Assembly (NCBI RefSeq): GCF_001619985.1
Contig: NW_017264197.1
Location: forward strand, 1,426,001 to 1,490,000
DNA: 64,000 bases
Source: Xylona heveae TC161
Lineage: Eukaryota > Ascomycota > Xylonomycetes > Xylonales > Xylonaceae
Direction: 5' to 3'
Under the pieces are notes generated by a model, which was given only the letters and a program-made list of their open reading frames with translations, was not told the origin of the DNA and ran no database searches. The translations under genes and the position numbers were made by a program. Positions 1 through 5,434 of the stretch are shown here, piece after piece. Each line of letters opens with the position of its first letter. Position 1 is the first letter of the stretch.

Positions 1-346
1 CAAGTTCAAAATTGCCTGGATTGACAAAGCCAGCATTGCTAGCGGGGGCAAAGTTGACGAGGTTGAAGCCACTGAGGGCACCTTCATTGTTTCCAGCTTG
101 AATGGCCGGAGTCATTTCCATGTCAACGTCATTGGTATTGGCAGTGCTCGGATTGGCAAGGTTACCGCCGTTGGAAGGGCCAACGCTGGGGCTGACACGG
201 GCTTTCATGGAGAATGGACTGTTATCCATCTCGACTTCGTTCATTTCGTTAGGAACGGGGGAGGATGGTTCGGAAATGTGGAATTCCTCGATGCCTTGCA
301 AGATGTTCGCGGCAAATTCATCAGCGTCCATGTTCATGCTAGTCAT
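1..346 (-). CDS. 5' part of an unknown gene, cut by the window edge
   Basis: Reading leftwards from an ATG at 344-346 the frame stays open for 115 codons to the window edge, so only the N-terminus is seen. The peptide begins MTSMNMDADEFAANILQGI and is acidic, rich in Asn, Ser, Pro and Met, without a signal peptide or membrane segment; it looks disordered, such as an activation-domain-like or adaptor N-terminus. I do not recognise the family. The start is favoured because the frame has no stop and because five well-formed introns lie directly upstream in the presumed 5' leader (391-1091), the last acceptor being only 45 nt before the ATG. Plus-strand frames over the same bases look like shadows. 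Confidence 0.6.
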   Translation of the reverse strand, partial: MTSMNMDADEFAANILQGIEEFHISEPSSPVPNEMNEVEMDNSPFSMKARVSPSVGPSNGGNLANPSTANTNDVDMEMTPAIQAGNNEGALSGFNLVNFAPASNAGFVNPGNFEL

Positions 347-390
347 TTCGAATGACGGTAAGCAAGAGCTTCTTGAATAGAGGTTCGGAT

Positions 391-1190
391 CTGCAGGGGT
401 TTGTCAGCTTCGTTCTTACTTTGGACTAATGAGTTTTAGGTCTCTTACAAGCACTGTCTAAGTATGACGTGTGTGGGTGTTTCTCGAAGGAAAGGGGATT
501 TTGAAATCTAAATGAAGTTGTCAGCTCTTTGCTCTGCGTTTTGTCAAGATCAGGAGGACTTACCGTCTCAAGAGATCACTCCGAGCTTAGCTCAAAAGCG
601 AGATTACAGCGACGAAAAAGGAAGCTTTCGAAGCGGATGAAAAAGAGAAGATGAAGGTGCGAATGAAAAGAGGATTTTACGTCTAAATGAAATTGTCAGC
701 TCTATGCTCCACACGTTATCGGCATTAGGGGGACTTACTGTCACAAAGGATCACTGCGAGCTAAGCTCAAGCTCGTGATCAACAACGACAAAAAGGGCAG
801 CTTTCGAAGCCGATGAAAAGAGGAGATGGAAGTACGAATGGAGGGGAGGATTTCGAATCTGGACGAACTTGTCAGCTCTCTGCTCCACACGTTGTCAAGA
901 TTAGGAGGACTTACCGTTACAAAGGATCACTGCGAGCTAAGCTCAAGCTCGTGATCAACAACGACAAAAAGGGCAGCTTTGGAAAGCTGATGAAAATGAG
1001 AAGATGGAGGTACGAATGAAAAGAGGATTTCGAATCTGGACGAAGTTGTCAGCTCTGTGCTACAAGCTTCATCAAGATCAGAAGGACTTACCGTCACCGG
1101 AGAATCGGTTTGAACTGAGCTCAAACGCGAGATCAACAATGACGAGAAAGACAACTTTTGAAAGCAGGTGAAGATGAGAAAGGTACGAAT
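391..1190 (-). repeat. Tandem array of intron-bearing leader units (period about 176 bp)
   Basis: Four diverged direct repeats, spaced 175, 176 and 177 bp, plus partial copies on both sides. Read on the minus strand each unit contains a complete fungal intron: donor GTAAGTCC, branch GAGCTGACAA, and acceptor TTTAG or TCCAG. The introns are 1036-1091, 859-914, 683-738 and 508-563, each exactly 56 nt; a fifth of 58 nt lies at 391-448 with donor GTAAGAGA and the same branch. Exons between them are 121, 120, 119 and 59 nt, so frame is not kept, which points to an untranslated leader of the gene starting at 346. Three of the four main units also hold the palindrome GAGCTWAGCTC. Splicing is inferred from consensus sites only. 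Confidence 0.75.
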
Positions 1191-2462
1191 GGAAAGAATA
1201 TCAGCTTGAGAGCAGACAGTTACGAACGAGAAAGATCAAAGATCAACCACGGTAAAGCTGTTCCTCGCTGACGAAAAGAAAGATGTGGATGGAGAGAAGG
1301 TGGAAGAAAGAAGAAGGGAGACGAGAGAGGAAGGAGTGCTTTTGAAGGCAAAAGTGGCTGGTCTCGCTTGAGAAGGGCGTTGTCGGGGCCGACAGTGGTG
1401 AATATGAGCTCCCTGCGGAAGGAACTGGCTACTCTGGTTTTCATTTCGAGTGACGGGCTGCTCTTATTCTCCCGCATTTGAAGGGCAAGATGGCTACGAA
1501 TTCCACTCAAATTTCTAGGCAAGTTACTCCTCGATACAGGCTATCTTGCGAATATTTTATCGATCGATTTGAAGCAGAAATGATACGTTGGCAACTATTC
1601 GTCGGTAAGTGAGATGAGGGGCATCTGAGTCCGAGTTTTGGTTCGATATTGCCTAATCGGGAAATATACGTGAATGTTGCCGGTGTTGTGGTTCGCGGTG
1701 CGCTAGGCGCGCTTGACCTGCATGGCACCGGAGCTCATTCTGACTCTACGGGGCCCGTCCTTCCCGTCTAAGCGATCATGGGGCCCTATTACCCCAGCCT
1801 CTCTATTAATGAATAGGTTTTGATGTTTTGCTACGCTTACTTGATGACTGCTCACTCTCAATCACAGGTTCGAAGCTATTCTCATATCTGGTTCATCAAA
1901 GCTACCTTGCTTTAATTTCTCAATCGAAGCTACATCTCGTGGTAGACTTGTCGTCATTCTCGAGAAGGACAATGACTTAATCACTTCACCCAGTGGCTAT
2001 CGGAAAAAGTTCCGGCAGAGTATTGTACCATTGACCATCATTGAGTGAATATCCTCGCTTGTCCATTTTATTACGTACGTGTTTTGAAATAATACCGGCC
2101 GAGATGCGGGGATGCTCGGCCGAATAGAGCTATTGACGAATTCACGGCTCTGAATACAATAGTAAGTGACTTGAGTTTGACTGCGAATAGAGCTAGAGAG
2201 TCATGTCATTACTCTATTGTTTCAGCATGACGAATAATACATTCTGGTCAGTCTCAGCTTCGAAAGGAGCTCAATGGTTCTAATATTCAAGGAGCAATAA
2301 TTCTCTTGTGTTAGGTAGTTAACTAAGTGATGCAAAGCGGGAGCAAAATCTCGGTTCTGAAGGCCAATAAATATCCTAGCCATGTGCGCAGGTTACAATA
2401 ATCAGGAGTGCAAGCATCACAGAAATTGAATTGCGCGGTTCTCTTTGCCTCTCATCATTTGG
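1191..2462. other. Intergenic, presumed promoter of the left-edge gene; one hairpin
   Basis: No convincing coding sequence. Minus-strand open frames at 1220-1522 and 1507-1728 have no codon bias or recognisable motif. A perfect 8-bp inverted repeat CGGCCGAG/CTCGGCCG (2096-2103 and 2115-2122, 11-nt loop) stands out. The right part is the 3' flank of the minus-strand gene that ends at 2463. Confidence 0.6.
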
Positions 2463-3803
2463 TTAATGCTGTGCTTGTTTGGGAGCTTTCAAAGCACCAA
2501 CGCGGTGCACCCAGAACTTTCCTTCTGTAGCATCCTCCACTTTTGCAAACGACCTATGGTGAAAGCCCCATTGGATAGCCTTCCTCTCCTGGCCATCAAT
2601 CTCTACCTTCAAAACCTGTTTATCCTTGATCTCGGTTGGGTCATTCATTCTCAAGAACTCGATGTTGAGGCCGCTAGCCACATGACCAATAATTAAGTCT
2701 TTATCATGGATGTGTTCAAGTTCATCCAGGAAACCCTTTCTTCTTCGCGAGAGGAGAGCAACTTCTCTCCACTCGTTCCATAAGGACTGTTCTTGAGAGC
2801 CTGACCAGAGATATTTGACAGACAGAATTCTGGCCAAACTTTCCGGAATATCAACTTGTACAATTCGCAGATCATCTAGAGGTACCTTATGCTTACCCCA
2901 CGCTGCGTACAGGTCTGCAGTCTCTTTCTGTGGAGTAAAATAGCTGAATGCTATAAGTCCGCCAAAGTCTCCTTCCACCGTGGCAATTTTACCCAGCTCC
3001 AGTCGCCGCGTCTCCTTATTGCAGAGCAATTTGCATCTATATCCATGCTCTGCACGCCAAAGAGTAGTGTCGCTAGGTGCGACTTCTGGCGCAACAACGT
3101 CTTCCGCCGAAATTGGCGCAGATGACCTTTGCTCAGCAGCTTCGTTCTCTGCAGAATGGTCCGACGTCTCATCCATCTCTTGCATATGGATGACCAGATC
3201 TTTTACAGTCTCGTCAAGGGCTTCGACTACTTCGAAAGCAGCCTGTGCCGCATCCAACACCCAGAACTCACAGCTGGCTGTACATCTGATGCCTTCAAAT
3301 TCAGGCATCAGAATTGCTTCCTTGAGCGTCGAGTTGATTCCCAAGCGGTCCAGATGGCCACTCCAGTCATCCAAGGAGCTCGTTGGGCCAGGCCCGAGCA
3401 TGGTGATCCTTGAGAGCGCAAAATCAAGGAAATCTACCTCGCCGATAGCGACATGTTCACGGAAATACGGATCATCCATGGCAGCAAGAGCAGTAGAATA
3501 GTTGTGCCACATTTCCGCGGCAGTTTTGAAGCCAATGAACTCGTAGGTCTCTTGACTATGTAAGTCCGCAGGTATTTCCACTTCGTCTGTCTCAATCTTC
3601 AGACATGATGCTTTGAAATCACGAGAAGTGACAGTGTTATGTGATGGTTGTGAAAAGGCTTGATTGGATATAGTTGAAGTAGGTGACATTATTACCAGAG
3701 GAGAGATCTTGCGCTTGTTCCCTTTGATTGGAGATAATAGATTCTTTTGTTCTAGAAAAGCCGCGACACCTTCGGATATTGTTTGTCTGTTCTGAGTGCC
3801 CAT
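2463..3803 (-). CDS. Orphan 446-residue protein, first member of a local three-gene family
   Basis: Single uninterrupted exon from ATG at 3803, 446 residues. The N-terminal 80 residues are Ser/Lys-rich and disordered. Residues about 85-200 carry ETYEFIGFKTAAEMWHNYS followed by an acidic helix-like stretch ending FWVLD; the same pattern recurs in the genes at 36940-37560 and 39559-40500. A separate C-terminal domain (about 245-435) has FSYFTPQKETADLYAAWGKH, then IVQVDIPESL, WNEWREVALLSRRRK and DLIIGHVASG. By eye this order resembles DUF3990-like, ADP-ribosyltransferase-fold domains (Y-T...A..WA, V.V...L, W...V..R, D.IIG..A). That is an inference; no catalytic residue can be assigned safely. 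No signal peptide or membrane segment. Confidence 0.8.
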   Translation of the reverse strand: MGTQNRQTISEGVAAFLEQKNLLSPIKGNKRKISPLVIMSPTSTISNQAFSQPSHNTVTSRDFKASCLKIETDEVEIPADLHSQETYEFIGFKTAAEMWHNYSTALAAMDDPYFREHVAIGEVDFLDFALSRITMLGPGPTSSLDDWSGHLDRLGINSTLKEAILMPEFEGIRCTASCEFWVLDAAQAAFEVVEALDETVKDLVIHMQEMDETSDHSAENEAAEQRSSAPISAEDVVAPEVAPSDTTLWRAEHGYRCKLLCNKETRRLELGKIATVEGDFGGLIAFSYFTPQKETADLYAAWGKHKVPLDDLRIVQVDIPESLARILSVKYLWSGSQEQSLWNEWREVALLSRRRKGFLDELEHIHDKDLIIGHVASGLNIEFLRMNDPTEIKDKQVLKVEIDGQERKAIQWGFHHRSFAKVEDATEGKFWVHRVGALKAPKQAQH

Positions 3804-5434
3804 CTTGGCAAGCCAGTCGAAGCTGATGAGAGTTCAGGAACCTCGATCAAATTAAAAATTAATATAGCTAAAATATTGAAGCAAAGCATTTGGCTTGGGG
3901 AAGTAAGACCGATGTAGGTCTATAGCTTGTTTTATCTCGGAGTCAGGTATTCTTAGCCAGGTATGCACCGACGTGGCTTCAGCGTACTTAAGGTGTCCAT
4001 TGGAAATGATGAATAATAGGCCGGTTTACATTCAATTAGAAAAGCCATACTAAGTGTGAATCGTGCAAAAAGGACCAGACCAAACTGGGTAGATCAATTG
4101 AATATGCCACCATGAATATGCCACCATGGTCTTTATTCACCGTTATGGTTACGCTTTGGGAAAGGGGTAAACAAGTTGTCAGTATAATTATTGTGCACGT
4201 TATTCGTACCTTGCACAATTATGCAGATATCGCTGAATTTATGCATAGATGGATTGGCGCAAAAGAACCACCCTCATCCGGTCCGAGCTATTTTTTCCAA
4301 ATCGAAAGCTAATCCAAGCAGATAAGATAATAGCTGTACTGTGCTTTTGAACGGGTAGAGATCTACACTGAGTAATTTTTGAACGGATAATGTCTGTATA
4401 GACGGCAGGTAGGCCGCTTTCAACTCCGGATTTTGGAATGTAAAGCATCATAGAATTATTTGTCTCTGGCATGCTTTAGTTACTTATATGATCTAGACTG
4501 TGGAGACATATATTTATTTTCTCCCTTGGATGTCTTAAGCATATGGATCTATGCTTCTCAGAAATATATTTGAAGTAATACATATTTACCATGATATTTA
4601 TGGTATAAGACGCACATTTGTTAATTAAAATCTCCCTAATCAAGGAGGAAAAAAAAAAAAACAGCAAACAAACCTAACTGAATATTTCATATCAACAGCG
4701 TAAATATGAATTAATCTAGAATATTATAGGTGGAATAATTGAATTGATATTTATCGCGGGTTGAAGAAGTGAGATGTTTCTAAATATATTCGTGGGGCAA
4801 GTCGGAGAAATCTCCGTGGGGTTGTCCCCAGCATAACCACAGCTGAAAAGCAAGTACAACTACCTCTAGAAGGGCATAATTTTCGTCAGAGTAGAGTACT
4901 ACTACTTTCAGGCTCGACGCCATAGCCGTTATCCCGACTGGAGTGACCTCAAGGTTGAGCTGGAGAGTTGACGTTCATACATTTGCAGTATTATATTGCT
5001 GGCAGTTTCTATAATTTCTGTTGCTCAACAAATTGTTGGAAACGTATATCATTGTGCGCCCAATATTCTTATGTTTTGCTCTCTCTCTCAGAACGAGCAT
5101 AAACCACGCACCGTCGCTTGCGTACGTACATCAATCCTACCGTAGCTCGGGTCTATCGCGTACCTTACGTCGGTCGGCCAAAGCTCGAACAGACGATAGC
5201 AACTCTTCTGCCCCAGGAATGCAGATACCTCACACTTTTCCGCTTTGCTTCTGATTGGCTTGCGAGGAAAGGGGACAGTGGGAGGTCTCTTGTGAAACAT
5301 CTACTCAATCATTGACGTACCCTGACCTCTGATATCATGCAAACAAGAGCTGTCGATTGAACTAGAGGTCTACATCCCAACGATAGTCAAGACCATTCGC
5401 ATCCGTGCTTGCGGGCGCGTGAGAAGCGCCCATC
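3804..5434. other. Intergenic, AT-rich, between divergently transcribed genes
   Basis: Divergent promoter region for the orphan gene (minus) and the Rab GAP (plus). Bases 4000-4800 are markedly AT-rich. A perfect 14-bp tandem duplication of GAATATGCCACCAT lies at 4100-4127. No gene or RNA recognised. Confidence 0.6.

Follow-up and report, generated by a model that had tools for sequence, protein, structure and literature searches.

What is a tandem row of intron-like sequences doing directly upstream of a very long open reading frame, and how did it come to be there? The locus belongs to Xylona heveae TC161, an ascomycete of the Xylonomycetes that lives as an endophyte of the rubber tree and has a genome of 24.28 Mb in 17 contigs. 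We analysed a 64-kb stretch of this genome (C5:1426001-1490000), referred to here as the window, and positions are those of the window unless a prefix is given. The reading frame comprises 2388 codons on the minus strand (L002:1180-8346) with its ATG at position 346, and the array lies immediately ahead of it.

TRF identified a repeat period of 176 across 491-1097 (3.4 copies) and a period of 353 across 514-1193, the array extending to about 1193. Each of four units contains one 56-nt intron-like sequence of the form GTAAGTCC...GCTGAC...YAG, and a fifth intron-like sequence of 58 nt follows. The donors are spaced by 177, 176, and 175 nt, and then by 115 nt to intron 5. The original prediction of four minus-strand repeats of ~176 bp, each with a 56-nt intron, and a fifth intron of 58 nt agrees with these coordinates and motifs, and the exon lengths that it gave, 121, 120, and 119 nt, were recovered between the first four introns. 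The shared donor and GCTGAC branch point were likewise found as described, while the acceptors, which had been called near-identical, fall into two classes, TTCGTCCAG for introns 1-2 and TTCATTTAG for introns 3-4. The array introns have the donor, the branch point, and the YAG acceptor at the ordinary spacing of GT-AG introns in this genome. The argument from constant intron length against drifting exon length is a weak one. With a start assumed at 1260, the leader would measure 914 nt before splicing and 632 nt after it. The features, in the direction of the minus strand, are as follows.

491..1193, minus strand: tandem array, period 175-177 bp, ~4 copies, from TRF, a repeat search (D1-D4), and the donor spacings
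1261..1400, minus strand: pyrimidine-rich stretch and putative transcription start zone (C+T 0.71 versus 0.47 in 1401-1600)
1092..1260, minus strand: leader exon 1, taking in the exonic portion of unit 1, with 1260 as the assumed 5' end
1036..1091, minus strand: predicted intron 1, 56 nt, with an ATG at 1072 opening a uORF of 7 codons plus stop
915..1035, minus strand: leader exon 2, 121 nt
859..914, minus strand: predicted intron 2, 56 nt, no ATG
739..858, minus strand: leader exon 3, 120 nt, identical to exon 2 at 110 of 119 aligned positions
683..738, minus strand: predicted intron 3, 56 nt, with an ATG at 725 opening a uORF of 7 codons plus stop
564..682, minus strand: leader exon 4, 119 nt
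508..563, minus strand: predicted intron 4, 56 nt, no ATG
449..507, minus strand: leader exon 5, 59 nt, its opening ~20 nt similar to the start of the unit exons
391..448, minus strand: predicted intron 5, 58 nt, no ATG; acceptor half and start of the next exon similar to units 1 and 2
347..390, minus strand: leader exon 6, up to the start codon, containing CTTACCGTC (354-362), a complement of the unit donors
1..346, minus strand: 5' portion of the 2388-codon reading frame, the remainder lying beyond the window, to L002:1180

Intron 5 was compared with the units through its acceptor half together with the beginning of the next exon; a likeness as strong arose in 1 of 1000 shuffles for unit 1 and in 19 of 1000 for unit 2, so that intron 5 may be an older relative. 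The last exon was also tried as an extra unit and rejected, as 58, 114, 260, and 396 of 1000 shuffles did equally well against units 1 to 4.

We evaluated how rare this arrangement is. The strict pattern GTAAG[TA]N24-40[AG]CTGACN6-16YAG, fitted to these five introns, of which four are copies of one another, matched five times on the minus strand in 1260..347, with no match on the plus strand there and none in the rest of the window. It occurred once in 20 sampled 10-kb stretches (200 kb, both strands), and 20 shuffles of the window averaged 0.05 matches each. Genome-wide, the pattern GTAAGTN24-44GCTGACN5-16YAG produced 129 matches, compared with 26 for the backward pattern, and the array contributed four among the matches listed; two sister patterns produced 74 and 114 matches (33 and 31 backwards). 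The repeat unit itself has a single match in the 24.3 Mb searched. Thirteen sites match GTAAGTCCN20-48GCTGAC: four are the array, and the other nine are unlike it between the motifs. TRF detected no further array with a period of at least 70 in 264 kb (the window and the 20 sampled stretches). The individual signals are common ones in this genome. GTAAGT is the most frequent donor (20 of 158 predicted CDS introns, lower-quartile length 56), and CTGAC and CTAAC are the leading branch types in the 87 predicted introns that have such a motif, in a set from a loose predictor that includes false introns and whose scoring favours such sites (a stricter predictor gave 5). Separately, five dispersed intron-like sequences of 58-64 nt, 81-100% similar, were observed at C2:1218886, C5:474960, C2:1247893, C5:447627, and C1:1322962 (L036-L040). 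An introner-like family was considered for these and rejected, since they sit within longer pairwise alignments of 1.1-2.7 kb and so belong to a gene or element family.

The description of the stretch as a noncoding, leader-like region with repeated introns was supported. The spliced exons contain stops in all three frames and no ATG. Dinucleotide shuffles of the spliced leader contained a mean of 5.06 ATGs and none in 0.35% of cases (P 0.0035); with one copy per unit the P value is 0.0175, and for a single exon 25% of shuffles are free of ATG. The ATG-free distance after splicing is 816 nt as a sum. For 41 control ORFs of at least 250 codons, measured unspliced, the median was 86 and the longest 654; the unspliced distance of the leader, 379 nt, was equalled by 2 of the 41. 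Before splicing the leader holds only two ATGs, in introns 1 and 3, and the next one upstream is at 1444. For a start at 1260, splicing would reduce the ATG count from two to zero, the behaviour of a leader buffered against uORFs, and a start above 1444 would bring in one further ATG. Removal of uORFs as a general role, which the original prediction had offered, was not borne out, because only introns 1 and 3 carry an ATG and the introns are not enriched in it (2 versus 2.98 in shuffles). Pyrimidine content (C+T) is 0.59-0.67 in the exons and 0.40-0.52 in the introns; it reaches 0.71 across 1261-1400 and stands at 0.46-0.47 across 1401-1900, a profile suggesting that transcription starts, and the leader has its 5' end, within 1260-1400. 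Joining a donor to any downstream acceptor created an upstream ATG in 0 of 15 pairings, so the protein would stay the same whichever splice sites were chosen. Eight of the 32 combinations of retained introns are ATG-free, namely those retaining neither intron 1 nor intron 3.

It had further been proposed that splicing is maintained while the units diverge. Across the four units, 13 of 14 columns in the core splice signals are invariant, the exception being the pyrimidine ahead of the AG (C or T), compared with 91 of 155 other columns (59%). The binomial P value against this background is 0.006, and of 182 circular placements three, the true one among them, give 13 invariant columns; these P values are soft because the units share descent and are not independent, and because several tests were picked after the sequence had been viewed. 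The signals thus exceed the background, yet the intron interiors (23 of 42 ungapped columns invariant) are no better conserved than the exons (68 of 113). Equal conservation of exons and intron interiors is not what selection on splicing alone predicts, and the proposal stands for the signals only.

The history of the copies can be partly read from their differences. Exons 2 and 3 are the most similar pair, the remaining pairs matching at 81-95 of 114-119 positions. Fifteen columns divide the four units two against two: ten join units 2 and 3, two join 1 and 3, and three join 1 and 2. These last three, which set 1 and 2 against 3 and 4, are the final three of the 15 and fall within the acceptor tail (P 0.002 under random order, in a test devised after the tails had been seen). 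An identical exon start follows the tails of introns 1 and 2. A single unequal crossover in the intron, between branch point and acceptor, would explain why the tails group as 1+2 and 3+4 while the exon bodies group as 2+3, and copies 2 and 3 seem to be the recent result of a chance crossover.

The downstream reading frame contains a second tandem array (L002:4436-5103), which is coding, lies outside the window, and has a period of 162 bp or 54 codons (3.6 copies, 71% matches). With two long-period arrays in one gene and none further in the 264 kb, the locus may be prone to unequal crossing-over. A tandem repeat of 54 bp (2.7 copies, L002:329-482) is also present downstream of the reading frame. 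By reading of the translation, the product is coiled-coil-like with a hydrophobic C-terminal part. It gave no Pfam family at E 0.1 and no PDB sequence match at 0.001, and protein-database searches with residues 1-500 and 2180-2388 returned zero matches, its own entry included. The neighbouring TBC-domain protein, unlike this product, was retrieved from the protein database, with 100% identity across the query to a protein of X. heveae TC161. Since the searches missed the product itself, the result does not amount to an absence of relatives, and the gene may lack a public model or have one of a different length.

Taken from the sequence, the probable reading is that the array lies in an untranslated 5' leader in which an exon-intron cassette was multiplied by unequal crossing-over and the introns are still spliced. 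The gene would be a long, coiled-coil-like one with a 5' untranslated leader. Its cassette, composed of acceptor, ~120-nt exon, donor, and branch point, would have multiplied in tandem through unequal crossing-over, and the mosaic of the copies suggests that the break of the last crossover fell between branch point and acceptor inside an intron. Each copy contains what looks like an ordinary short fungal intron, which is probably removed; ribosomes would then scan some 630 nt of leader, free of ATG, before they meet the start codon of the reading frame. Because no frame runs through the units and any donor-acceptor joint yields the same protein, cassette number could drift nearly neutrally. 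The splice signals would persist because an unremoved intron would be a cost to the leader, and this cost would be most direct for introns 1 and 3, which carry upstream ATGs. Any gain in expression from the added introns would be secondary. The arrangement looks like a real and unusual side effect of unequal crossing-over in a leader that is not translated, and a probably undramatic one.

We weighed this reading against several others. A minisatellite with a promoter or regulatory role is an unlikely alternative; transcription would then start past most of the units, and the intron motifs would have been carried along as passengers of duplication. Such an arrangement would accommodate the equal conservation of exons and intron interiors and the AGCT palindromes that recur in the units by reading, and the transcription start used here is an assumed position; however, the signals are kept above background, composition shifts at the exon-intron junctions, and a fifth, diverged intron-like sequence is present. 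The ATG counts bear on this explanation from both sides, as the exons contain none on the minus strand versus 15 on the plus strand, while ATG ranks just fourth among the depleted triplets of the spliced leader (z -2.99 for ACT, -2.58 for GCG, -2.54 for TCT, and -2.48 for ATG).

Intron-mediated enhancement by the leader array, a putative function, is possible. That the array is itself adaptive, each extra intron raising expression in this putative manner so that intron number sets a dose, is quite unlikely. The core signals are kept in all four copies as this explanation would have it, and excerpts of a study of Cryptococcus neoformans describe introns that act cumulatively on mRNA level by number and position (PMC3744415). 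The same excerpts, however, describe negative effects for some introns, such as two of CAS3 (PMC3744415), and at the Xylona locus there is no sign of selection on number, copies 2 and 3 resembling an accident of recent crossing-over. It is a rather remote suggestion that the leader is a copy-number-variable intron array (an intron VNTR), in which unequal crossing-over changes the cassette count, leaves the protein untouched, and so turns the number of splicing events in each transcript into a heritable, fast-changing expression dial.

A structural splicing switch, in which hairpins at the donors or pairing of the donors with CTTACCGTC would set the number of introns kept, is very unlikely. The 71-nt folds at donors 1-4 have z values of -4.61, -1.71, -3.36, and -0.39 (0, 15, 1, and 67 of 200 shuffles as stable), and their energies were reached by 3, 35, 14, and 45 of 188 control GTAAG[TA] sites, so that donors 1 and 3 appear stable but donors 2 and 4 ordinary. 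Whole exons gave z values of only -2.68, -2.07, -0.77, and -0.18. Four of the five donors are less open than the leader median of 0.077 in local unpaired probability computed in a longer context (0.037, 0.042, 0.012, and 0.058; donor 3, 0.090), but mean donor pairing is ordinary, with 168, 47, 60, 94, and 62 of 188 controls as high. Covariation in the leader folds did not exceed that of shuffles (310/500 and 161/500). A donor-masking hairpin was rejected, given that 94.3% of consensus cells pair versus 94.0% when shuffled, with no extra covariation and ordinary donor pairing. CTTACCGTC, which we take to be similar to the 5' end of U1 snRNA, lies on the minus strand 8-16 nt ahead of the start codon and is complementary to the exon-intron junctions of the repeated introns. 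Its pairing with the four unit donors, at a mean of -15.7 kcal/mol, was equalled by 6 of 1500 window sequences upstream of ATGs, although the complementarity was spotted post hoc and does not extend to donor 5, for which 116 of 500 shuffles did equally well. One element can pair with several repeated sites in docking/selector exon clusters of the Dscam type. Here there are no coding alternatives, and the pairing is post hoc and weakly supported: the 6/1500 complementarity stands beside donor pairing at ordinary levels and covariation at the shuffled level. The splicing-based switch of the original prediction found no support in donor pairing relative to the 188 sites or in the 15 donor-acceptor pairings, none of which gives an ATG.

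Two RNA motifs were also tried and rejected. CNYTCNYT, presumably the Ssd1 motif, occurs once in the spliced leader versus 4.46 times in shuffles, and TTGATGA, which we take to be a C-box-like snoRNA motif, is confined to intron 1, the introns being short for a snoRNA. That the region is a protein-coding or structured RNA gene is barely credible despite its repeated exons with some stable local folds, given the stops in every frame of the spliced leader and an Rfam search of positions 1-5000 with no family at gathering score, the lone sub-threshold match being on the plus strand (E 0.12, 20.7 versus 80 bits).

The favoured reading, a cassette multiplied within an untranslated leader, was compared with known systems as they appear in excerpts of the published accounts. 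In yeasts, leader introns such as those of USV1, MCR1, and YTA12 are proposed in one excerpt to protect against uORFs (PMC6726248). The Xylona introns share with those described there a position entirely within the leader and the confinement of unspliced-leader ATGs to introns, but they number five, four are copies of one cassette, and three of the five lack an ATG. In Cryptococcus, introns in UTRs are reported to show lower conservation and more frequent retention than those in ORFs (PMC5006051). Three models of intron multiplication come closer, and none fits the Xylona array. In the AGGT model, as excerpted, tandem genomic duplication raises intron number by turning a duplicated exonic segment into an intron (PMC3443670); the Xylona introns are instead copied inside a larger unit, a 56-nt intron within 175-177 bp, and are not duplicated segments bounded by AGGT. 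In polyubiquitin UBC, splice sites likewise recur in each tandem unit, but the excerpt describes dual-specific sites, one sequence acting as donor and acceptor, and an intron length that is a multiple of the unit (PMC10809524), whereas the Xylona sites are separate and the intron measures 56 against a unit of 175-177. Introner-like elements of fungi are similar short introns in several copies, but by the excerpted account they number hundreds across unrelated genes (PMC4457414), while the Xylona unit occupies one locus. The same paper puts other intron duplication, within-gene tandem duplication included, at less than 1% of the gains of single introns in Zymoseptoria tritici (PMC4457414). Among the matches listed in the open-licence literature, titles and abstract openings contained no leader with tandemly multiplied intron cassettes, and a precedent in print is possible. 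The new aspect is that a known kind of event, tandem duplication of an exon-intron cassette, would have taken place in an untranslated leader.

If the introns are spliced, the locus would show that introns can multiply within one untranslated leader by the copying of whole exon-intron cassettes, with no spread to other genes and no origin from exonic repeats. Such an array would tolerate alternative splice choices, leaving cassette number free to drift. With it one could also ask, in a ready natural setting, whether expression depends on the sheer number of near-identical introns, and whether untranslated leaders are a site of low-cost intron gain.
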